Shown here piece by piece: positions 26,862-38,619 of a DNA stretch of 38,619 bases. The translations under genes were made by a program, and so were the position numbers. A model generated the notes under the pieces. That model searched no databases. It worked only from the letters and a program-made list of their open reading frames with translations, and was not told the origin of the DNA. Source of the DNA: a virus. Positions within the stretch are counted from its first letter, which is position 1. Every line of letters begins with the position of its first letter. The stretch is taken from positions 1-38,619 of the IMG/VR virus record IMGVR_UViG_3300028844_003867; one strand, 5' to 3'.

Positions 26862-28263
26862 GTTTACTCACTATTTCTGCTTTTTTTCTTTGTGTTGGTT
26901 TAAATGTTAAATCTACTTTTGATTTAACCTCATCTAATAACTCTTGGTCAAATCCTTCTGGTATAAAGTAAGATGGATAAGGTGATTCAATATTATCTTT
27001 TACTCCTTTATATATCATCCATCTACGAATATACTGCCATACCCCATTCAATCCCATATTTGGTTGTACTTGTTCTGTTATTTCTGCTTTTGTCTTATAA
27101 CCATTCATAACACAATACAACCAGTTAAACCCATCTTTAGGTGTATGTTTTCTTTCTTTTGTAATCAATTCTTCCATTCTCTTCAAAAGATTACCCTTAA
27201 ATATACTATTAAAATCAGGTAAGTTCCAAGAGAAATCTTCAGTTTCTTTTGAAATTAATTTAAGTTTTTCTTGAAACTCTTCTTTAGTCTTAAATAAATA
27301 GGGATAGTTATCACCAACAATCTTTTTTATATTAGATTGTTCATAAATTAATACTGGTTTACCCAATCTCATCCCATCTTGTATTGCTAAATTCCAAGTA
27401 GCATAGTTGTCAACGAAACAAATTGATGCTTCTGTATTCTCTAATAAATATCTATATTGTCCAGAGTTTAACTTTGAACCCACATATTCTTTTGGTGCAT
27501 TATAATCAGTACACCAAACTTGATACTCATCTTCAAGTCCTTCCATATATTCCATCATACGATTAAACCCAGTAGACTTTGCCCATCTGTGATTAAACAC
27601 CAATACCTTTTTGTCTTTTGGTATATCAACCGGTATTGGGTCTGGTAGAACCTCAGATGCTAATGGAAATGTCAATGTCTTTTCCTTCACATAATCTAAG
27701 TTTATACTTGTTGACTTTTCTTTCTTAAAGTTTTCTTTTAACCAATCGTTAGCAATTTCTGTATGAAAGAAAGTAGAGTCTGACTGGTCTATACCCTCTA
27801 ATTGTCTCATAAAAGAATCTGGTATCGCAGTACTTGCTCTTGATTGTGGACAATCTACCCAATGAAAAAATAAGAACCTATTCAATACTTGACCATATCT
27901 CTTATCATTTAATGCTACGAATATGTTATATAACATTTCTGGTTGATGACAGAAAACAAAATCTATGTCTTGTGTCTTTAGGTCTAATAGTCTTTTGAAC
28001 CTTGAACCATAGAAGTGACTTCTGTTGGATAGAGCATCTCTATGATACGGATAATGTAGTAATGTTACATTCTTCCTATTATCTACCACATCGTGTTTTT
28101 CTGGCATTACAATATAATGATGACACATAGGTAGAAAAGAAATCGTTTTCTCTACTACTTTATAATTAGAATCAAATTCACTTTGAAATCTTCCAGTAGT
28201 ATCATATCTAACTGGGTTTAAATAGTGTAATATCCTTAAACCATATAATGGACTATCAATCAT
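26848..28263 (-). CDS. Glycosyltransferase-like protein with C-terminal winged-helix-like region (copy 2)
   Basis: This 471-residue GT-B-like protein shares many blocks with the protein at 33143-34657: FLPMCHH, FCHQPEMLYN, FFHWVDCPQSR, LVFNHRWAKSTGFNRMMEY, ASICFVDNYATWNLAIQDGM and RLGKPVLIY. LVFNHRW...KSTG and FVDNYxTWNxxxQD resemble donor-side loops of GT-B enzymes; I cannot assign a CAZy family. Residues about 385-450 (NWLYCVMNGYKTKAEITEQV...VWQYIRRWMIYKGVKD) look like a helix-turn-helix/winged helix. The start overlaps the gp62 stop by ATGA. DNA glycosylation is a possible role. Confidence 0.6.
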   Translation of the reverse strand: MIDSPLYGLRILHYLNPVRYDTTGRFQSEFDSNYKVVEKTISFLPMCHHYIVMPEKHDVVDNRKNVTLLHYPYHRDALSNRSHFYGSRFKRLLDLKTQDIDFVFCHQPEMLYNIFVALNDKRYGQVLNRFLFFHWVDCPQSRASTAIPDSFMRQLEGIDQSDSTFFHTEIANDWLKENFKKEKSTSINLDYVKEKTLTFPLASEVLPDPIPVDIPKDKKVLVFNHRWAKSTGFNRMMEYMEGLEDEYQVWCTDYNAPKEYVGSKLNSGQYRYLLENTEASICFVDNYATWNLAIQDGMRLGKPVLIYEQSNIKKIVGDNYPYLFKTKEEFQEKLKLISKETEDFSWNLPDFNSIFKGNLLKRMEELITKERKHTPKDGFNWLYCVMNGYKTKAEITEQVQPNMGLNGVWQYIRRWMIYKGVKDNIESPYPSYFIPEGFDQELLDEVKSKVDLTFKPTQRKKAEIVSKHDFF

Positions 28264-28712
28264 TTCATAACCCTCTTTAGTTCTTTTTCATCAACACCAT
28301 ATGTCTTGACAATATTAGTCAAAGACTCTATACCCTTTTCATCTCTACCTAAAATATCTATATAGTCTTTTGCTTCTACACTACTAACTTCATAGTATTG
28401 TCTAACATAATCAACAAGTTTATCATTATACTTCTTGCTTGATTTACCTTTTATCCATTTTAGATATACTTTACCCTTTGGTATAAATTCTTCATATACA
28501 TGATATATCTCTCTTGGTTTTAATAAACCAATGGTATATTTTTGTAATGAATTGATAAAGTCAACCCAATTTACATTCATGGAAAGATAACGATTGACAA
28601 GATAAGTACTGAACGATTTCCTTTCGGATTCAGATAAACTTTCCCAGTAACCTTTTGATACTTTCTTTTCTGTAATCTGTTTTATATGGTCAAATAGAGT
28701 CTTTGGTTTCAT
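28260..28712 (-). CDS. gp62: Clamp-loader small subunit (T4 gp62-like)
   Basis: This 150-residue protein follows the gp45-gp44 genes in the T4 order. FINSLQKYTIGLLKPREIYHVYE (split; residues 54-76) and PKGKVYLKWIKGK are what I recall from gp62 proteins of marine T4-like phages. T4 gp62 is 187 residues; shorter forms are common in marine phages. It forms the gp44(4):gp62 complex that loads gp45 at primer ends. Its ATG follows the previous TAA directly. Confidence 0.85.
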   Translation of the reverse strand: MKPKTLFDHIKQITEKKVSKGYWESLSESERKSFSTYLVNRYLSMNVNWVDFINSLQKYTIGLLKPREIYHVYEEFIPKGKVYLKWIKGKSSKKYNDKLVDYVRQYYEVSSVEAKDYIDILGRDEKGIESLTNIVKTYGVDEKELKRVMK

Positions 28713-28946
28713 TTACGCCTCTCTTGGCATAAACTCTTCATTTACATGACCACATTTATTACACCCAAACACTTGAACTGGTGCTATAATTTCTTGTCCA
28801 TTTGGACTCATAATAGCACTAACTTTCTTTATCAAGAATACTGGGATAAATGTATCATGACCACACTCATCACATTTGATATCATCAGCCTTACTTATAT
28901 CAATATTTGCTTGTGTTGGTAATGGTTGTTTTGGTTTCATTGTCAT
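28713..28946 (-). CDS. Zinc-ribbon protein of the clamp-loader operon
   Basis: This 77-residue protein has KCDECGHDTFIPVFLIKK and GCNKCGHVNEEF, two CxxCGH knuckles that form one zinc ribbon. AGGAG lies seven bases before the ATG at 28946, whose ATGA overlaps the gp44 stop; MKPK at 28940 is a weaker choice. A similar small zinc-ribbon gene between gp44 and gp62 occurs, as I recall, in marine T4-like phages. It probably contacts replication or transcription machinery. Confidence 0.75.
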   Translation of the reverse strand: MTMKPKQPLPTQANIDISKADDIKCDECGHDTFIPVFLIKKVSAIMSPNGQEIIAPVQVFGCNKCGHVNEEFMPREA

Positions 28947-29872
28947 TTTATTTCTCCTAAGATTTTAACAATCATTGACATTACATTTATTTCTTTATCA
29001 ACAACAGATGTGTCCATATATTGATGTTCTGCTATTATCAATATAACTCCTGCTTTATGTCCTTCTGCGTAAGAGTCCAATTCATCATATAATAATTTAT
29101 ATAAGTCTGTGTAGTCTCTGACTTTAGCATCAGCAAGTAGTTTACGGATAGAGTTAAATCCATTTTTCATATCACTTTTTTGGAGATATTCTAATAACTT
29201 TAACTTATAATCGTTTTCAATAACAGATTTTTCATCTATATCAAGAACACCATCAATAACTTGTCTTTGTGCAGAATTAATAACCCTACGAATATCTGGA
29301 TAACCAGAATCAATCAGTATCTTAATCTTATCAACATCATATTTAATTTCTTCCATTCCAAGAATTAAGGACACTTGTCGTGCAACATCTGCTTTAGATG
29401 GTGGTGTAACACCAAATACTTGACATCTACTTTGAATTGGGTCAATGACTTTTTCTACATAATTACAAGTCAAAATAAACCTACAATGTCTTGAAAAAGT
29501 CTCCATCAAGTTTCTTAATGCTGCTTGTGCATTAGGTGTCAAGAAATCACACTCATCCAAGATAATAACCTTGAGTGGTTTAAACCCAACCGAAGACGCA
29601 AAGTCTTTGATTTTGTTTCTCATGACATCAACACTATTCTCATCAGAAGCATTAATATACATATGGTCACATTCTATATTTTGAACAATCAACTTTGCAA
29701 GAGTAGTCTTACCAGTCCCTGCGTTACCGAATAAAAGAAGATGTGGAACATCTCCTTCTTTGAGATACCTACTTACTTTTTTCTTTAGGTTCTCATTTCC
29801 GACATAACTATCCAGATTTTTTGGTCTGTACTTCTCAACCCAAAGTGAATTTTCTTTTGGATTTCCGAACAT
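28943..29872 (-). CDS. gp44: Clamp-loader AAA+ ATPase subunit (T4 gp44-like)
   Basis: This 309-residue protein has LWVEKYRPKNLDSYVG at the N-terminus, the Walker A loop GNAGTGKTT (residues 49-57), the Walker B DECD box (106-109), sensor 1 LTCNY and the SRC arginine-finger motif (148-150). All are hallmarks of RFC/gp44 clamp loaders (T4 gp44: 319 residues). The start forms TAATG with the gp45 stop. It hydrolyses ATP to open and place the sliding clamp. Confidence 0.95.
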   Translation of the reverse strand: MFGNPKENSLWVEKYRPKNLDSYVGNENLKKKVSRYLKEGDVPHLLLFGNAGTGKTTLAKLIVQNIECDHMYINASDENSVDVMRNKIKDFASSVGFKPLKVIILDECDFLTPNAQAALRNLMETFSRHCRFILTCNYVEKVIDPIQSRCQVFGVTPPSKADVARQVSLILGMEEIKYDVDKIKILIDSGYPDIRRVINSAQRQVIDGVLDIDEKSVIENDYKLKLLEYLQKSDMKNGFNSIRKLLADAKVRDYTDLYKLLYDELDSYAEGHKAGVILIIAEHQYMDTSVVDKEINVMSMIVKILGEIK

Positions 29873-30591
29873 TAATTAGCCTCATCTACCGCTACGAAGT
29901 AGTAATCGGAAGTGTACTCTCCATCAGTAAAACTTACATGAGCCAATCCATTACTTGCTACTTTCATTGTTGATGTTTTAGCACCTCTGTTTGCTTTCAA
30001 CACTTCATTAAATAAACCAGAAGAAAAAGAGACTTTACCAATATCTTTATACTCTTTTGTATCAATAGTAAATTTAACTTGGTTAGATGCAACACTTGTG
30101 TATCCAATGATTAAAGTTGCAGCACCATCTTTACAATCAATAGTAAAAGTAGTAACATCAGGAAGTGCTGATTTACCTTTTGTGAAACGAGTAATGAACT
30201 CTGAATCAAGGTTGACTTCTACTTCAAACTCTGGTAATTGTTTTAAAGGTGGTGGTGATGGAATAACAGATAAGTCACTACACATAAATGTAACTTTACT
30301 CTTCTTGTCTTGTGCATGAAGACTAAATACCTTGTCATCTGCTTTACTTTTATCAATTTCTATGTCACTATCAAGAACATCTAATAGTTTCTTGAGATGT
30401 GATGTGGTATACAAACCGAACTCAAGTTTCTCAAATGGAAACTTAGAAAGTTTTACCTCACCTAACATAGAACGATTTTCAGATATGAAACTGGTCTTTA
30501 AACCATTTCCATCCGTTTCCCATTTTACAGACTCAATATTACCACCAAGATGGTATCTATCTATAAACTTTGTAATAACCGCTTTATTCAT
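29872..30591 (-). CDS. gp45: Sliding clamp (T4 gp45-like)
   Basis: This 239-residue protein is close to T4 gp45 (228 residues). The sequence has FIDRYHLGGNIESVKW, LYTTSHLKKLLDVLD and SVIPSPPPLKQLPEFEVEV, the last a Pro-rich linker between the two clamp domains. It ends SDYYFVAVDEAN, as clamps of this group do. AGGAG lies six bases before the ATG. The trimer encircles DNA and tethers gp43; in T4 it also activates late transcription. Position just after the polymerase and before gp44/gp62 confirms the call. Confidence 0.92.
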   Translation of the reverse strand: MNKAVITKFIDRYHLGGNIESVKWETDGNGLKTSFISENRSMLGEVKLSKFPFEKLEFGLYTTSHLKKLLDVLDSDIEIDKSKADDKVFSLHAQDKKSKVTFMCSDLSVIPSPPPLKQLPEFEVEVNLDSEFITRFTKGKSALPDVTTFTIDCKDGAATLIIGYTSVASNQVKFTIDTKEYKDIGKVSFSSGLFNEVLKANRGAKTSTMKVASNGLAHVSFTDGEYTSDYYFVAVDEAN

Positions 30592-30613: not shown

Positions 30614-33139
30614 TTAGAAATCAAAGAACTTTTGTGCATTCGCATAAGCATTATCAGGTACTTGACCCCAACCCAATGCAGAATAAAAATCCTCTAATTT
30701 GTTTTTTAAATCTGACACGAATATCTTTTCGTAATCAATGTTTTCTTCAATGAAATCAAGTATGTCTTTTGGGTCATCTTCATCACCTTTAAGAGCACAA
30801 GTTTCAATTCCAAATTTATTATCTTTTAACCATACCCATTTTAACTTATCCCCATCATGTAATGGTGATACATTTTTATGACCAAAATACTTCAACAAGT
30901 CATTATACCTTGCTGCTGCTTTAACATGAGCTGGTGTACCAAGTGCCATTTCTGTAAATAGACCTTTCTTATATTTAGTACTATACTTCTTCAACCCTTT
31001 CAGACCACTTGGTTTTGCAATATCAATTATGTTAGACTTACTAAGATTTTTTCTGAAGTCTAATACATTATTATCAATATCATTTTTAGGTTTTATCTCT
31101 AATATGTCTTTCAACATACCACTCATAAACTTTTTAAATCTTGGTGGAAAATTAGAACGGACAACATCCAAACCCTTTACTTCAAGTTCATCACAATCAA
31201 CACCATTGTTATTTATAATCCATTGTGCATATCTCTTTTTTGCTACCCATAGACCAGACTTTGCTATAACTTCTTGTTTAATATCAAACCGATGGTCTGT
31301 GACATTTAAGAACTTTTTTGCGAACATATCATATGAACTATTCATAAAGTCTTGTACTTCTTTAGATATAACCAAAATTTCCTTTGACATTAACTCGTCA
31401 TTGTTTTCGTCTATTGATGGATTTCTCTTCTTCACGATTGGTAAAGCAGAATAAAAAACTGAATCTGTATCAATATATATACAGAAGTCATCCGAAACAC
31501 CCAATTCTTTTTGATAATAAAAATTACCCATATTTTCTGTATACTTAATCAAGGATTGACCAGTCAAAGTAACTGCTTCTGCGTTGTCTGAATCATAAAA
31601 TCTAAATGTAGGTAATCCCAATACACCATATAAAGAGTTTAACAATACCTTTTGTACATATTGTCTTGCTTTAAAGTATTGATGTTTTTCTTTATCACCA
31701 GATTGACCATACTTCTTTTCAAGTTTTCTAAACTCAACTCTTTCTTGAAACCACTTATCAAGTATATCTGGTATAAGACCTTTGTCATCTGTTCTATACA
31801 GACAACCATTTGATGCTATTGTGAACTTTGACTCTTCAAGAAAATCATTCAATCTCTCTTTATTAAGAGATAGTGTTTGTCCCTCAAAGTAAACCTCATA
31901 TGTGATGTCTTCTTTTTTATTGAGATATTTCTTAACATCCCAATCAAGAACCTTTCCGACTTTTGTTTCTGGGGATATATTCAACGACATAATAATAGAT
32001 GGATATAGTGAAGTTAAATCCAAATCATATATCCAACGATACAATCCAGGTTTTGGTTCTTTTACATATGCTCCAGTAAACTTATCTGGTCTTCCACCGA
32101 CCTCTTCTAATGACCGATGTTTTTTGTTAGTAGAAACTACACCAAGTCTCTTTGTATAAGTTAATATAGCTCCCTCAAGAAATCTTGATGAAAAGAATAC
32201 ATCTTCATAAGGGACATGACCTTTGTGACAAATACCACGAACCAAGTCTAAGAACTTTAATTTCTCATCAAGAGCAACAACAATCTTAACATCGTTTAAG
32301 TTATATTCAATGAACTTCTCAATATCATCTCTAAATAAATCATCAAGGTTTCCTTGGTATTCAATCTTTCCCATATCAACTTCAAGTTTACCTATCATAT
32401 CAAGTCTATATGATGATTGTTCTTTGAAAGTAAATTTTCTATATAGTGCAAGATAATCAAGAACTGAAACACCTGCTATTTTATATCTACCTCTGAATTG
32501 ATTCCATTGTACATCTTGAATAGGACTCAATAGTTTAGCAGTATCAACATCTTTTATACGAGTAATTCTATTATATAAATATGGAACATCAAAAAACTCT
32601 ACATTCCAACCAGTTAATATAGTTGGGTTGTAATCTCTATACCTTTTTAGAAATGCATTTATCAACTCAGACTCAGTACTAAATCTAAATACCTTACAAT
32701 CATCTGTTTCATAATCGTCAACCCTAAGTTGTTCATCAAGAACAAGTACAACATATTTACCAGTATCACTCATGTGGTATGCAATAGATGTTATCTTATT
32801 TGCTGCTTTTTCTGGTTCAGGAAACCCATCAAGAACTTCAACCTCAATATCAAATGTAAATATCCTATGACCACTTGACGGGTCATCACTATCAGTATAT
32901 GTATCAATTAAGATTCTTGCCTCTGGGTTTACATCTTGTTCATAGATGATACCCGATTTCTCGTCTTGTTCACTCCATTGAGTAATCTTTTTTACCTTCT
33001 TACCATCTAATGCAACCATATCACCATACGGGTCTTGAATATAAGCATACTTTTTCATATGATATTTTAAGTAACCCTTTTCATCATCCCATAGATGAAC
33101 CGTATTTTTATTTTTCTGATACCAAATATTCTGATACAT
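30614..33139 (-). CDS. gp43: Family B DNA polymerase (T4 gp43-like)
   Basis: This 841-residue protein (T4 gp43 is 898) carries all catalytic motifs. Exonuclease residues are Asp97/Glu99 in FTFDIEV, Asp184 in NVEFFDVPYL, and Tyr279/Asp283 in YNLND. Polymerase motif A is DLTSLYPSII with Asp374, motif B is KVLLNSLYG (Lys497, Asn501), and motif C is IDTDS (Asp557, Asp559). Proofreading and polymerisation should both be intact. It is a single unsplit gene without intein or intron. It begins three bases after the glycosyltransferase-like gene. Confidence 0.97.
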   Translation of the reverse strand: MYQNIWYQKNKNTVHLWDDEKGYLKYHMKKYAYIQDPYGDMVALDGKKVKKITQWSEQDEKSGIIYEQDVNPEARILIDTYTDSDDPSSGHRIFTFDIEVEVLDGFPEPEKAANKITSIAYHMSDTGKYVVLVLDEQLRVDDYETDDCKVFRFSTESELINAFLKRYRDYNPTILTGWNVEFFDVPYLYNRITRIKDVDTAKLLSPIQDVQWNQFRGRYKIAGVSVLDYLALYRKFTFKEQSSYRLDMIGKLEVDMGKIEYQGNLDDLFRDDIEKFIEYNLNDVKIVVALDEKLKFLDLVRGICHKGHVPYEDVFFSSRFLEGAILTYTKRLGVVSTNKKHRSLEEVGGRPDKFTGAYVKEPKPGLYRWIYDLDLTSLYPSIIMSLNISPETKVGKVLDWDVKKYLNKKEDITYEVYFEGQTLSLNKERLNDFLEESKFTIASNGCLYRTDDKGLIPDILDKWFQERVEFRKLEKKYGQSGDKEKHQYFKARQYVQKVLLNSLYGVLGLPTFRFYDSDNAEAVTLTGQSLIKYTENMGNFYYQKELGVSDDFCIYIDTDSVFYSALPIVKKRNPSIDENNDELMSKEILVISKEVQDFMNSSYDMFAKKFLNVTDHRFDIKQEVIAKSGLWVAKKRYAQWIINNNGVDCDELEVKGLDVVRSNFPPRFKKFMSGMLKDILEIKPKNDIDNNVLDFRKNLSKSNIIDIAKPSGLKGLKKYSTKYKKGLFTEMALGTPAHVKAAARYNDLLKYFGHKNVSPLHDGDKLKWVWLKDNKFGIETCALKGDEDDPKDILDFIEENIDYEKIFVSDLKNKLEDFYSALGWGQVPDNAYANAQKFFDF

Positions 33140-33142
33140 ATT

Positions 33143-34657
33143 CTACCAGAACTTATTTTCTTTGATTGTGAAATTTGGGTTTTTCATACTTCCCCTATCT
33201 TTAAACACCTCATCTGTTTTCTCAAGAATTGGCATATTATCTATGATTTGTTGAACTTTGTCTCGGTTCTTTTCTGGAATAGTGAACCTTGTGTACTCAC
33301 TTGTTGGGTCATCAACTGCTCCATGTGACAATACCCATAACCTAATCTTTTCCCATGTGTTAGATAAATATAACTTAGGATGTGTATTAAACAATAGATT
33401 TTTCTTGTACCCATTGTCTTGCATTGTGTGCCATAACCATTGTATTGCTTTTCTTGGAATCCTAACCACTTTCTTTTTAGGAGAGTTTTGAACTGCATCA
33501 ACAAATGTATCAACAAAATTCTTTTTAAACACCTCGTCATGTGGTGGTAGTTTCCAATCAATTGACTCTGGTACATTCTCCACTACACTTTCAAACTCTT
33601 CTTGTGTTTTAAAATAGTGTGGGTAGTCTTTTCCAAGTACATACTCTTGTACTGGATGGTCAAACACAATTGCAGGTTTACCCATCTTTAATGAATCTTG
33701 TACTGATAAATTCCAAGTCATATAGTCATCTACAAAACATAATGTTGCGTGACAATTTTGTAACAAGTATTTGTAGTTTGCTCCAGATGGTAAGTTCTGT
33801 ACTCTCATCCACTTTGGTGCTGGTGTCTTAATCATACCACCACTTTTTTGGTCTCCTGCTGCTTCATCTGTAACCCAAACAAGATACTTATCTCTATCTA
33901 AATTCTCGGTATACTTAATAAGTTTTTTTATACCAGTAGTGTTATTCCATCTGTGATTAAATAATAAAATCTTTTTGTCTGTTGTAAACGGAAATTCTTT
34001 TGCTCCATCTGGTTTTATATCAGACTCAAGTGGCATGTATACTAATTTTTCTTGTGTTGTTTCTTCATCAAGAGTCATAGTATGTGGTTTCTTGTTCCAA
34101 TTTGTACCTAAGTATTTTAAAGTTTCTGGACAATGTACGAATGACTTATAACTTAAATTGATTGATTCAAGTTGTCTAAAGAATCCATCTGGCCATCCAG
34201 AAGTTGGACGACTCTTTGGACTATCACACCAGTGAAAGAAAGGAAATGAGTCAACCGTAGTTCCGTACCTATCAGTTAACATAGCATTATAAACATTGTA
34301 TAGTAATTCTGGTTGATGTGTAATAATAAAATCTACATCTGTTTTTGAAAAATCAATTGTATCTAAAAATTTCTTTGAGTTGAAATAACCACGATTAAAT
34401 AAAACACTTCCTGCATAATCAAAAGGAAGTAATGTAACATTTTCCCAACTATTTTCAAGTGTATTATTTGGTGGTACTAAAGCAGTGTGGTGACACATAG
34501 GTAACCAATTAATTGTCTTCTCCATTACCTTCCAATTTGAATCACCATGATGTAACCATTTTGTAGACTTCCATCTTACTGGAGACATCACATGAAGAAC
34601 TCGTCTTCCAAATAGTGGATGGTCTCCATACTCTTCATATAACTTGTTAAAACCCAT
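33143..34657 (-). CDS. Glycosyltransferase-like protein with C-terminal winged-helix-like region (copy 1)
   Basis: This 504-residue paralogue of the protein at 26848-28263 shares WLPMCHH, ITHQPELLYN, FFHWCDSPKSR, LLFNHRWNNTTGIKKLIKY, ATLCFVDDYMTWNLSVQD and KMGKPAIVF. The C-terminal third (IQWLWHTMQDNGYKKNLLFN...TWEKIRLWVLSHGAVDD...TRFTIPEK) aligns with the same region of the other copy and looks like a winged helix. It is the first gene after the promoter at 34682-34711 and sits directly before the DNA polymerase. The GT-B assignment comes from the LLFNHRW and TWNxxxQD loops and is moderate; the acceptor may be DNA. Confidence 0.6.
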   Translation of the reverse strand: MGFNKLYEEYGDHPLFGRRVLHVMSPVRWKSTKWLHHGDSNWKVMEKTINWLPMCHHTALVPPNNTLENSWENVTLLPFDYAGSVLFNRGYFNSKKFLDTIDFSKTDVDFIITHQPELLYNVYNAMLTDRYGTTVDSFPFFHWCDSPKSRPTSGWPDGFFRQLESINLSYKSFVHCPETLKYLGTNWNKKPHTMTLDEETTQEKLVYMPLESDIKPDGAKEFPFTTDKKILLFNHRWNNTTGIKKLIKYTENLDRDKYLVWVTDEAAGDQKSGGMIKTPAPKWMRVQNLPSGANYKYLLQNCHATLCFVDDYMTWNLSVQDSLKMGKPAIVFDHPVQEYVLGKDYPHYFKTQEEFESVVENVPESIDWKLPPHDEVFKKNFVDTFVDAVQNSPKKKVVRIPRKAIQWLWHTMQDNGYKKNLLFNTHPKLYLSNTWEKIRLWVLSHGAVDDPTSEYTRFTIPEKNRDKVQQIIDNMPILEKTDEVFKDRGSMKNPNFTIKENKFW

Positions 34658-34712: not shown

Positions 34713-34741
34713 GAAAAAATGGGGGGATTTTAGTCCCCCCA
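34713..34741 (-). terminator. Intrinsic terminator after the TonB receptor gene
   Basis: Read on the minus strand, TGGGGGGA (34741-34734) and TCCCCCCA (34727-34720) form an 8-bp, almost all G:C stem with a six-base loop (CTAAAA) followed by TTTTTT. It begins eleven bases after the receptor stop codon and is by far the most GC-rich hairpin in the window. It should insulate the receptor transcript from the replication block. Confidence 0.9.
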
Positions 34742-34752
34742 AATTTAACCAT

Positions 34753-37482
34753 TTAGAAATTAACAGAAAGTCCTAAGTTGAAATGTCTTGGTGTACCCAA
34801 GAATACTTCAGCGTTATGTGCAAGGTGCATTTTGTCACCATACCCATTGTACTTACTATTATCTACTGCATCTTGAACATATACATTATCAAGTGCGTTA
34901 AACATATGACCATGTAAGGTCATATCAAGTCCTGCTATCTCAGGTAACTTATAAGACAAGTGTAAGTCTAACTTACCATAAGATGGAGTTTTCCATACTT
35001 GTGCTCTATCTGCATCACCTTCAACTTCACGACTATCTGGACTCCAATCAGAATAATGATTGTCATACCATTTATAGAGACCTTGTACTCTTAAACCATC
35101 AATTGGTTTTAGTGTAAGACCACCAACATAGGATGTCTGTGGCATATCACCAACCTTTAGTTTGTCAAGAGCATATCTATATTCTGTAGATGTTGTGCCA
35201 ATTACTTGACCATCTTCATTATATTCCATCTCTGTGTAGTCACCATTAGCGTCTCCATCAAAATACCAATCACCAAAACTTACGATGAAATCTACATCAA
35301 CCATTTCGTGAAGAGCGACTTTAGATTCAATCTCTACACCAGAGTGACTTTGATTTACACCAGTAAGGTAAATGATATCAGTATCACCAGAGTCACCTTG
35401 ACCTGTTTCTACAGATTTAGTAAGGTTTCTGTCTTTCCATTGGGTGTTATAATAACTACCCTTGATAGACACTAACCCACTATTGTACTCTCCACCGATT
35501 TCCATAGATGTGAATTTCTCATTTTCTGGGTTTGTAGATACATTCCCATCATAATCAATTACATTATCTAAGATTGGTGGTTTCTCAACATAACCAAGGT
35601 TTGCAAATGCTGATAGTCTATCATCAAGATTATATCTACCACCACCTTTAACTTGAAAGGTTGTGATTGCATCTGCTTCTACAAGTTCTTTCTCAACAGA
35701 AAAATGGTCTTTGTATGTATAACCGATGGTAGAAATACCACCCATTCCATACAGACTCATCTTATCCATTTCATATTTACCTTGTAAGAAAGCTCCAAAC
35801 CAATCTACGGTTGTTTCGTTGTGATAAGCAATAATATCACCTAACCCAACTTTCTTTCCATCAGGAGCATTGTTATCAGCATAGTCTACATAGTAGTCTC
35901 CACCGAGTAAGTCACGAACTTCTCTTGCGTGTTCAATACCAGCAGTTCTCCAATCAATACCAACTTGAAGTTCAAGTTCGTCTGAAACATCATAGTTTAA
36001 CTTTGAAATCAAACCATAAGTATCTTGTCTATTGATTGAATTACGAAGAATACCAGTTGAACGATTTTCTGTGTCTGAAAAAGCAGAATCTACATTAGCA
36101 GAGTTCTGTGCTATTTCAGCATTCCAATCCCAAGTCCAAGGTGAACTTGCATACCAAGGGTTTCCTTCTATCGCGGGTGTCCTACTTACGCTACCATAAG
36201 TTCCTGTACCACCACCAGAACCACCGCTCCAATATGCTACTGAACTTAACCTCATGTCATCGTTAATATCATAGAAATGATTTAAGTTGACAAGTGGTTT
36301 ATGAAAGAAGTTTTCTCTTTCATTTAAGAAGTTAGGGTCATACCTATCTTGTGTTTTGTCACCATACATATAAAAGTATTGTTTACCTTTATAGTCTGAA
36401 CTAACTGGAGCAACATTCTGATTATAGAACCTTCCTGCTTCATGTTCAAACTTCTCGCCTGAAACGTAAGCAGAATCATTATAACCATCAATGTCACCTG
36501 CTAACTCTTGTGAGTAAGTGGCAATATTCTGTTTATATAGGTTCTGACCATGTCGTTGTGGTGCTCCTATTGCGTACAACTCAAACCTTTGGTCATCATT
36601 TACTGCGTAACTTGCACCTGCATAGTATGCCCATGCGTCTGTCCAAGTCCCATCAATGAATCCATCACCAGTTTTACGAACAATAGTACCACTAAGTGCT
36701 AACTTATCGTTAATAAGACCAGAGTTATAGTTAAGAGTTGATTTTAGAAATCCACCCTCTCCTACTTCTTGTTTGATTTTCCCGCCCTTCTCTTGTGAGG
36801 CTGGGTCTGTGATTATGTTCATAGTTCCACCAATAGATGGTGTTGCAAGATTAACGGCTGATAGACCTCTTTGCATCTGAATTGAGGAAGTAGCATCACC
36901 TACTCCATCCCAATTAGACCAATAGACCCATCCGTTCTCCATGTCATTCTGGGGAACACCATTAATCATAACTGCAACATTTCTTTGATTGAATCCACGA
37001 ACATTGATGCGAGCATCGCCTGCACCACCACCTTGTTGAGTTGCGTATACACTTGGTGTAGTGTTAAGAATCATTGGAATGTCTTGTGAACCAAGACGAA
37101 CTTCCATTTCTTCTTTAGTAACATTAGTGTATGCAACGGGGGTTGTTTCGTCCGCTCTTGAAGCTAATACTTCAAGTGCTGATAATGCCACCACATCAGT
37201 TGCTAATGCAAAACTAAGTGTTGACACGATATCTGACACACTAAGAGACTTAGTATGTGAGACATAACCAATGAATGAAGCAGTAATGTCAAAAGTACCA
37301 GGTCCAGTTTCAATGGTGAATTTTCCTTCACCATCGGTAACTCCACCGAGTTCGGTTCCCTCAACGATTACATTCGCTCCAACAAGTGGTTTTGAGTCTA
37401 CATCGGTTACAACTCCAACTACTGATTGTGCAAACAATCCAGTTGTCATTATAATAGATGTAATTAGATTACGAATTTTCAT
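34753..37482 (-). CDS. TonB-dependent outer-membrane receptor
   Basis: The start at 37480-37482 (MKIRNLITSI) has AGGAG seven bases upstream, and 909 residues follow. Residues 1-19 form a signal peptide (MKIR...TTGLFAQ). Residues 20-95 are a carboxypeptidase-regulatory-like domain (VVGVVTDVDSKPLVGANVIV, GGVTDGEGKFTI). A plug follows at about 115-228 (DIPMILNTTPSVY, INVRGFNQRNVAVMINGVPQ, QRGLSAVNLATPSIGGTMNI). The rest is a beta-barrel ending GLSVNF, with the terminal Phe that BAM recognises. Such receptors import chelates, vitamins or oligosaccharides with TonB-ExbBD of the host. Its G+C looks higher than its neighbours: 29/60 and 27/60 in two sampled lines against 21/60 in gp43 and 20/60 in the reductase. 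It appears intact. Confidence 0.95.
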   Translation of the reverse strand: MKIRNLITSIIMTTGLFAQSVVGVVTDVDSKPLVGANVIVEGTELGGVTDGEGKFTIETGPGTFDITASFIGYVSHTKSLSVSDIVSTLSFALATDVVALSALEVLASRADETTPVAYTNVTKEEMEVRLGSQDIPMILNTTPSVYATQQGGGAGDARINVRGFNQRNVAVMINGVPQNDMENGWVYWSNWDGVGDATSSIQMQRGLSAVNLATPSIGGTMNIITDPASQEKGGKIKQEVGEGGFLKSTLNYNSGLINDKLALSGTIVRKTGDGFIDGTWTDAWAYYAGASYAVNDDQRFELYAIGAPQRHGQNLYKQNIATYSQELAGDIDGYNDSAYVSGEKFEHEAGRFYNQNVAPVSSDYKGKQYFYMYGDKTQDRYDPNFLNERENFFHKPLVNLNHFYDINDDMRLSSVAYWSGGSGGGTGTYGSVSRTPAIEGNPWYASSPWTWDWNAEIAQNSANVDSAFSDTENRSTGILRNSINRQDTYGLISKLNYDVSDELELQVGIDWRTAGIEHAREVRDLLGGDYYVDYADNNAPDGKKVGLGDIIAYHNETTVDWFGAFLQGKYEMDKMSLYGMGGISTIGYTYKDHFSVEKELVEADAITTFQVKGGGRYNLDDRLSAFANLGYVEKPPILDNVIDYDGNVSTNPENEKFTSMEIGGEYNSGLVSIKGSYYNTQWKDRNLTKSVETGQGDSGDTDIIYLTGVNQSHSGVEIESKVALHEMVDVDFIVSFGDWYFDGDANGDYTEMEYNEDGQVIGTTSTEYRYALDKLKVGDMPQTSYVGGLTLKPIDGLRVQGLYKWYDNHYSDWSPDSREVEGDADRAQVWKTPSYGKLDLHLSYKLPEIAGLDMTLHGHMFNALDNVYVQDAVDNSKYNGYGDKMHLAHNAEVFLGTPRHFNLGLSVNF

Positions 37483-37572
37483 AATCGTTCTCCTATCATT
37501 GTTGTTATGAAATGGCACATTTTTCTACAGGTGTGCCGTCTGCCTGTCCGCTTTTGGTTCTGTAATTTGATT
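37483..37572 (-). other. Leader of the TonB receptor gene with hairpin
   Basis: This 90-base gap holds the receptor's AGGAG site and a hairpin, GGCACA (37537-37532) with TGTGCC (37519-37514), loop of 12. A weaker stem (CAGG/CCTG) would compete with it. No U-tract follows and no clear TTGACT-like promoter is seen, so read-through from the reductase or an undetected promoter is possible. It is too short for a cobalamin riboswitch. Confidence 0.35.
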
Positions 37573-38619
37573 CTAATTCGCATAGTCTTGGTCGTCATTA
37601 TCACCAGTCATCGGTACAATCTCACACGAATCGTTATTACAAAATTTATCCACATCTGCTTCTTCATTTTTAATAGAACCAAATGTAAGTTTTCCAAGTT
37701 TGGATACTTCTTTATTATATGTTTCTTCATCTATTGACTCATATGGCATTTGTTGATAAGCACCATAATCATGTCTTGGTAATAAACTGATACCTTTTAA
37801 ATGATATTGAAAATAATTTAAACAAGGTGCTATCTGTTCCGACTCTTTTTCCGGGTTAAATGTCACGGTACAACTAACTTGGTTATCAGCCCAATGCCTT
37901 TGCATAAATGCTGCTAAACTAAATTGTTCCCATATAGATAAGTCACCCACAGTGCGTATCCCTTCACCAACATCTACTGGAACCTCAACAACCATTGTTG
38001 TATCTTCTGAACCAAATGCTGGTTCTACCTTGTAATTATACTTTTTCAATGGTTCTAACAATTCAGAATGTTTTGATAACCTCATTCTCCTAATGTAAAA
38101 ACGACTCTCAGGGTAATGTAATCCTGGAGTCGCTCCTGCTAATAGTGAAACTGTGCCACTTGGTTTTACTGATGTCGTCTTGATTGACTTTGGTACTGCT
38201 AACCAATCTGAATATATTTTATCCCATTCTTGTATCGTATCATATCCATTTTCTAACCAATCCCTTAGACTTTCCATACCACGATTGGTAATAAATTGTG
38301 CTACTCCACTAACAGAACATCCGATTCTACGATTTCTCAACATCACACGATTAGTATCACTCCAATGTGTTTTACCTAATGTTACCGTTTTTGCATAGAG
38401 ATAAGCATACTTTAATGTTTTCTTGTAGTCCTCTAATGAATCATGGTTTGATGGAAATGTTTCTACAAGACAACATAATTCATATGACTCCAGAGATTGT
38501 TCTAAACAAGGATTACCACCTGCTACTCTATGGTCTTTCCAATCTCCACCATTTTTCATACGAGAATATTTTTGCATATTCTCCAACCAAGCAAGACCTG
38601 GTTCACCATTATCTACAAT
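37573..38619 (-). CDS. nrdJ: Adenosylcobalamin-dependent ribonucleotide reductase, C-terminal part
   Basis: The frame is open through the right edge (upstream residues IVDNGEPGLAWLEN), so only about 348 C-terminal residues are seen. NPCLEQSLESYELCC carries the active-site thiyl Cys, catalytic Glu two residues later and the redox partner Cys eleven residues after the first. This spacing equals Cys408/Glu410/Cys419 of the Lactobacillus monomeric RTPR. KPSGTVSLLAG follows, and the end has CNNDSC, the CxxxxC tail pair that re-reduces the active site. The class II enzyme makes deoxynucleotides for phage DNA synthesis and needs vitamin B12. The TTG at 38586 is not a start; the gene simply continues beyond the window. 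Confidence 0.92.
   Translation of the reverse strand: MVDNGEPGLAWLENMQKYSRMKNGGDWKDHRVAGGNPCLEQSLESYELCCLVETFPSNHDSLEDYKKTLKYAYLYAKTVTLGKTHWSDTNRVMLRNRRIGCSVSGVAQFITNRGMESLRDWLENGYDTIQEWDKIYSDWLAVPKSIKTTSVKPSGTVSLLAGATPGLHYPESRFYIRRMRLSKHSELLEPLKKYNYKVEPAFGSEDTTMVVEVPVDVGEGIRTVGDLSIWEQFSLAAFMQRHWADNQVSCTVTFNPEKESEQIAPCLNYFQYHLKGISLLPRHDYGAYQQMPYESIDEETYNKEVSKLGKLTFGSIKNEEADVDKFCNNDSCEIVPMTGDNDDQDYAN

Follow-up and report, generated by a model that had tools for sequence, protein, structure and literature searches.

TonB-dependent receptors (TBDRs) take up a wide variety of small nutrients and are mostly known in phage biology as the doors through which phages enter the cell. The locus described here raises the question of why a phage should carry such a receptor in its own genome and what it might do with it. 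The window, meaning the whole stretch of DNA that was analysed, comprises the 38,619 bases of an IMG/VR virus record, in which a TBDR gene of 909 aa occupies positions 34753-37482 on the minus strand (the strand of all single genes and signals of the window given below). It was recognised by its Pfam matches, a structure model and its relatives in 325 stretches of viral contigs. The start was placed at the ATG at 37482, ahead of which a Shine-Dalgarno (SD) sequence, AGGAG, can be read at 37494-37490; the GTG at 37518 was merely the pick of the open reading frame lister and was discarded. The protein comprises a signal peptide (residues 1-18), a CarboxypepD_reg-like domain (about 19-94; CarbopepD_reg_2, 4.5e-15), a TonB-box region (about 103-111), a plug (113-230; Plug PF07715, 3.6e-14) and a barrel of the 22-strand type that runs up to the terminal Phe909. 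In PHROGs, one family, of unknown function, matches the plug region. The TonB-box-like segment (LEVLAS, in the ALEVLASRAD region encoded at 37150-37176) is conserved in phage and host copies: EVLAS is identical across all those compared, and E104-D111 is invariant in 20 viral copies. Judged by position and conservation, a TonB box is present ahead of the plug.

An AlphaFold model built from 80 aligned sequences (a model from 20 close sequences was poor) reached a pLDDT of 84.7 and displayed a complete plug-and-barrel fold that aligns to structures of TonB-dependent transporters (TBDTs) through residue 909. The phage protein shares this fold with BtuB, FhuA, FoxA and PqqU (VIA-align, Z 35.6-39.8), from which it differs in sequence (12-17% identity); no ligand can be transferred, and its CarboxypepD_reg-like domain falls outside most of the alignments. 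BtuB was the top match at Z 39.8, only about 2 Z units over FhuA and FoxA, and the comparison with solved TBDTs does not decide the ligand. Plug, plug-enclosing barrel, terminal aromatic residue and TonB box, the marks of a TonB-dependent outer-membrane transporter, were thus all found. Pfam and model agree with the sequence-only reading of the window, which had seen a complete receptor, with signal peptide, regulatory-like domain, plug, barrel and terminal Phe, in a genuine T4-like phage genome. As far as sequence and model tell, the protein is an intact outer-membrane receptor, for which TonB-driven uptake is predicted.

That reading had also placed the gene between a phage ribonucleotide reductase (RNR) and the gp43/45/44/62 block. 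Both flanks were confirmed, with the correction that a 504-aa protein (33143-34657) separates the receptor from gp43. This protein has no Pfam or PHROG match, is provisionally labelled a putative glycosyltransferase, has a sigma70-like promoter match ahead of its gene (34711-34682) and has relatives in 7 of 80 TBDR loci. It is followed by the T4-like DNA polymerase gp43 (30614-33139; phrog_262, 8e-184) and by a replication block at 28260-30591, made up of the gp45 sliding clamp (29872-30591) and the gp44 clamp loader (28943-29872), both with PHROG matches, a small ORF (28713-28946) and a gp62-like clamp loader (28260-28712). On the other side lies the C-terminal part of the RNR (37573-38619; phrog_367), which is cut by the record end. 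Its class was read from full-length relatives, the window holding the C-terminus only: these scored 354.5, 371.7 and 341.8 bits on TIGR02505 (cut-off 340) and match the structure of the Lactobacillus leichmannii enzyme, 1L1L. By this homology, the phage RNR is a class II, monomeric, adenosylcobalamin (AdoCbl)-dependent ribonucleoside-triphosphate reductase (RTPR). In one other contig (L051:4908-6284) the RNR frame seems to start with an intein-like or host-intervening sequence, IMDIVDDGKIEKTWDIEVEDKHHFFVKNPENRVDEIIVSHNT, which suggests an RNR intein. Elsewhere in the window, a big block of sugar genes on one strand (2976-24648) includes a heptosyltransferase (TIGR04414, over cut-off), a UDP-glucose dehydrogenase, a nucleotide-sugar epimerase and glycosyltransferases; such a load of genes for glycan building is unusual in a T4-like phage.

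TBDRs of this family come from bacteria, and a gene of this kind in a viral record might reflect bacterial contamination or a chimeric assembly. The scan of viral contigs tells otherwise. Among the best 80 of the 325 stretches, which were taken for locus comparison, none has an internal stop and 76 are essentially full length; among viral copies whose start is intact, nearly all have a GGAG-type SD ahead of it, and the terminal Phe is found in nearly all complete ones. When the gene was sought next to gp43 in these other phage contigs, all independently assembled, the RNR adjoined the TBDR in 75 of 80, the other five beginning too close to the TBDR, and a gp43 relative was present in 72. The same junctions thus recur in dozens of independent contigs. 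In addition, the GC3 of the window gene (0.246) resembles that of its neighbours (0.20-0.26), the viral copies form a clade separate from the cellular ones and their leader is phage-specific. The recurring junctions refute an artefact, to which we attach a negligible probability. A search that started from the RNR found the TBDR next in 64 of 75 contigs with sufficient downstream sequence, nearly always 76-94 nt past the end of the RNR alignment. Far from being very unusual, as it had first been called, the receptor gene is common and old in a large group of marine phages. Pairwise dN/dS values of about 0.11-0.13 indicate that the viral TBDR is under purifying selection. Being host-derived, intact and under selection in a lytic-type phage genome, it can be described as an auxiliary metabolic gene.

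The TBDR is absent from 11 of the 75 RNR-bearing phages. In four of these a deletion scar is visible, in which the leader pseudoknot described below, the SD and the first TBDR codons are left before the next gene (L209:6001-6160, and the same in L210, L211 and L260). In other phages the slot between RNR and gp43 contains a glutamine synthetase (PF00120) or a tRNA-like sequence in place of the TBDR, or is empty. Loss and replacement in some phages suggest that the receptor is useful but dispensable. The glutamine synthetase of this slot is short (328 aa; L278:6034-7020, also in L217, L277 and L281), and a glutamine synthetase also occurs beside the TBDR in L026, L027 and L077. Sequences resembling tRNA-Ala follow the RNR in L259 and L273 and the TBDR in L069 and L074. 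Two contigs (L045 and L047) show, by eye, a peroxiredoxin-like gene some 0.5 kb ahead of the TBDR, where it separates the RNR from the pseudoknot.

Database searches and a tree of the receptor returned both viral and cellular relatives and pointed to the source of the gene. The closest cellular relatives are proteins of Ca. Neomarinimicrobiota (SAR406, also called Ca. Marinimicrobia), with 60-69% identity. The tree, built from 75 sequences, unites the viral copies in a single clade (SH-aLRT 97) that is nested within the SAR406 TBDRs and has as its sister a cellular contig from a metagenome-assembled genome (L082), a position that argues for a single capture from SAR406. The cellular ortholog is one gene in each of the six host genomes examined, whose other TBDRs are less than 40% identical. 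This single-copy core TBDR of SAR406 (e.g. G047/L082, G121, G036) and the phage protein are full-length orthologs (62-69% identity) with the same domain order, a 91% identical plug and an identical TonB box; the phage copies differ in forming their own clade, in standing behind a phage RNR and in having a pseudoknot leader, which no host copy was seen to have. On the ancestry of this gene, SAR406 is probably also the present host of the TBDR phages. The phage RNR, sought in 245 Marinimicrobia genomes, gave one partial match of 48% identity (G180). Among 31 phages, pairwise identities of TBDR and RNR correlate with each other (rho 0.39), as do those of gp43 and gp44 (0.78), while TBDR/RNR identities against gp43 and gp44 give rho 0.02 and -0.08; phage pairs at about 50% identity in gp43 reach 85% in the TBDR. 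Because TBDR and RNR track each other and not gp43 or gp44, they appear to travel as a module among distantly related phages.

The short sequence between the two genes, GCGGACAGGCAGACGRCACACCTGTAGAAAAATGTGYC, folds as an H-type pseudoknot (37514-37551; 64.6 bits to model R1). In its first helix ACAGG (37547-37543) pairs with CCTGT (37531-37527), in its second GGCACA (37537-37532) pairs with TGTGCC (37519-37514), and loop 3 is A-rich. Across 38 distinct sequences 97.8% of the cells pair, and 27 cells show double changes against 6.1 in shuffles, a value reached in 0 of 500 shuffles; slid controls fail. Compensatory changes thus support the two interleaved helices, and the element is, by covariation, an H-type pseudoknot. 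A pattern scan of viral contigs detected the motif in 108 stretches, with a TBDR next in 104 of the 104 that were testable; insertions of a glutamine synthetase or peroxiredoxin-like gene behind the RNR leave the pseudoknot next to the TBDR. An Rfam scan for known riboswitches and leaders produced no match at the gathering score, and an RsaE hit (E 6.2, opposite strand) was at chance level. The model searched against 244 host genomes gave weak partial matches only, none ahead of the TBDR. One Marinimicrobia genome contains a 22-nt match to the inner pseudoknot (L394, G106:C6:32368-32389; E 1.5e-4 for one genome), at a site with no CRISPR-like repeat pattern. The leader resembles the translational operator of T4 gene 32 (PMC535899) in being a phage mRNA pseudoknot that precedes a single-stranded, A/U-rich segment and an SD, and differs from it in preceding a TBDR instead of gene 32 and in being known here from sequence. 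The inspected gp32 leaders of these phages show no such pseudoknot, and its identity as a gp32 operator was rejected. At the other end of the gene, just past the stop, a hairpin resembling an intrinsic terminator (GGGGGG-loop-CCCCCC and a T run) lies at 34720-34741; a G/C hairpin occupies this place in 13 of 15 phages inspected and a tRNA-like sequence in the other two. The conservation of these parts defines a cassette of pseudoknot, SD, TBDR and, usually, terminator, in which the pseudoknot may affect TBDR translation. Leader, terminator, B12-dependent RNR class and SAR406 origin had all escaped the sequence-only reading.

What, then, might the receptor do? TBDRs such as FhuA, BtuB and Cir often serve as receptors for phages and colicins, and a phage-borne copy might act as a decoy, replace a host receptor or shield the cell from competing phages or bacteriocins, the last two having been proposed from the sequence at the outset. 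The long extracellular loops are 85-96% conserved among the phages, equal to or above many barrel strands, which argues against diversifying roles of this kind; the low dN/dS with no diversifying pattern, the kept TonB box and the loss of the gene from some phages, in which the scar remains, point in the same direction. These roles are disfavoured and we rate them as very improbable. Feeding the infected cell, which had been proposed with B12, iron and glycans as candidate cargoes, is the best-supported role, and the cargoes fare differently. Glycans are opposed by the SusC/RagA profile (TIGR04056), which scored 60.4 bits on the window receptor, far under its cut-off of 368, and no SusD partner was noticed; nothing indicates iron.

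Cobalamin is a more serious candidate. Since the adjacent RNR is AdoCbl-dependent, a receptor importing B12 for it would make sense, and the joint exchange of RNR and TBDR among phages, together with the small lead of BtuB among the structural matches, is consistent with this role. Evidence from the hosts speaks against it. Cobalamin riboswitches above cut-off are present in 185 of 245 Marinimicrobia genomes, where they stand with different TBDRs or with other genes: no member of the family occurs in the 30 best riboswitch loci, and seven of these loci show only TBDRs of 21-26% identity. In five genomes checked (G001, G002, G004, G005, G006) the riboswitch is on another contig than the ortholog; neither the surroundings of nine host orthologs nor the window showed a cobalamin riboswitch, and no cobalamin gene was noticed by eye beside host orthologs. 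Import of B12 is therefore possible, not favoured, and we consider it unlikely.

The gene neighbourhoods of the cellular relatives offer another clue. In 17 loci of non-SAR406 bacteria of the FCB group, the gene for a phosphodiesterase/nucleotide pyrophosphatase of type I (PF01663) lies less than 500 nt downstream of the TBDR and shares its strand; two further loci have it within about 3 kb. These loci span Balneolota, Bacteroidota, Ignavibacteriota, Calditrichota, Chlorobiota and KSB1. At least 10 SAR406 genomes have the phosphodiesterase and the TBDR on a common contig and strand, against a roughly estimated chance expectation of about 1. Seven of these genomes add an S1/P1 nuclease gene (PF02265) at the locus, the gene order being phosphodiesterase, nuclease, histidine phosphatase, SRAP, TBDR. 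Both enzymes begin with signal-peptide-like sequences. No other TBDR was found within 10 kb of the phosphodiesterase in six genomes compared by eye. In many Marinimicrobia (L401-L406, L084) the SRAP gene (PF02586) is the immediate upstream neighbour of the TBDR, also in loci that have neither nuclease nor phosphodiesterase (L409, L410). The recurrence of nucleotide phosphodiesterase and nuclease neighbours suggests nucleic-acid or phosphodiester products as the cargo of this TBDR lineage, and the favoured reading is that the phage receptor would import such breakdown products. The linkage is uneven: within the DNA read it is missing from many host orthologs, L083 and G030 among them, which rank with the closest, and the phage loci that were searched have neither enzyme. 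The neighbouring enzymes could also serve phosphate supply generally. Import of some other scarce nutrient unrelated to nucleotides (general organic phosphorus, a metal complex, a peptide or a glycan) would fit such phosphate scavenging, the breadth of the TBDR family and the glutamine synthetase found in the RNR-gp43 slot of some phages, which makes general nutrient supply plausible. The recurrent nucleotide phosphodiesterase and S1/P1 nuclease neighbours and the constant RNR linkage point instead to nucleic-acid products, and we regard this more general role as doubtful, less so than B12.

With a phage RNR as its neighbour, a receptor that takes up nucleic-acid products would make nucleotides or phosphate available for phage DNA. 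In the proposed sequence of events, the TBDR would be co-transcribed with the RNR, its translation tuned by the pseudoknot, and its product exported via Sec and BAM and energised by the TonB-ExbBD of the host; the receptor would then bring in breakdown products of nucleic acids or other phosphodiesters, and the imported nucleotides and phosphate would feed the phage RNR and DNA synthesis. The steps read from sequence are that the gene is phage-resident, intact and under purifying selection, has export, plug, TonB-box and barrel parts, stands directly after the phage RNR and is framed by a pseudoknot leader of its own and, in most cases, a terminator hairpin. Taken as a whole, the explanation that a functional TonB-dependent importer was captured once from the SAR406 core TBDR and kept by widespread T4-like marine phages as an auxiliary metabolic gene for nucleic-acid or phosphodiester products has, in our estimate, about even chances of being correct. 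A narrower version is put forward tentatively: T4-like phages infecting SAR406 might give their host an extra receptor for nucleic-acid products, linked to the RNR and governed by a new phage-specific pseudoknot (a small riboswitch or a protein operator), and so import raw material for their genomes from the surrounding water.

The association matters because a globally distributed marine phage group has a TBDR as a standard gene, which goes back to a single capture from an abundant uncultured phylum and which selection has maintained. If the proposed role is true, phages boost outer-membrane nutrient import during infection, and auxiliary metabolism widens from enzymes to active receptors, which bears on ocean nutrient flow. 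The gene also ties the phage group to SAR406; phages with, without and with a deleted copy provide a natural comparison, and the trigger of the new conserved RNA element may reveal the TBDR ligand.

What appears to be new is the scale and age of the phage-TBDR association, the SAR406 origin, the RNR module and the pseudoknot, which make this an auxiliary metabolic gene of an unusual type. Other outer-membrane proteins are encoded by phages: the Lc porin of phage PA-2 is one, and BFVD holds OmpC-like proteins of uncultured Caudovirales. Such porins share with the TBDR a phage-encoded place in the outer membrane, and differ from it in being passive and not TonB-gated. In a literature search conducted outside subscription journals and preprints, the only earlier phage TBDR found was a SusC-like one of a marine megaphage (PMC9723777). 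In the passage on it, a putative SusC of Mar_Mega_1 and related megaphages is given as one auxiliary metabolic gene among others; it is likewise a TBDR encoded in a phage genome, and the account, unlike the family described here, comes without family-wide conservation, leader or host origin (PMC9723777). The related megaphage records (LR745206, LR756501-3) match the window TBDR only with 27-29% identity over 17-27% of the protein.
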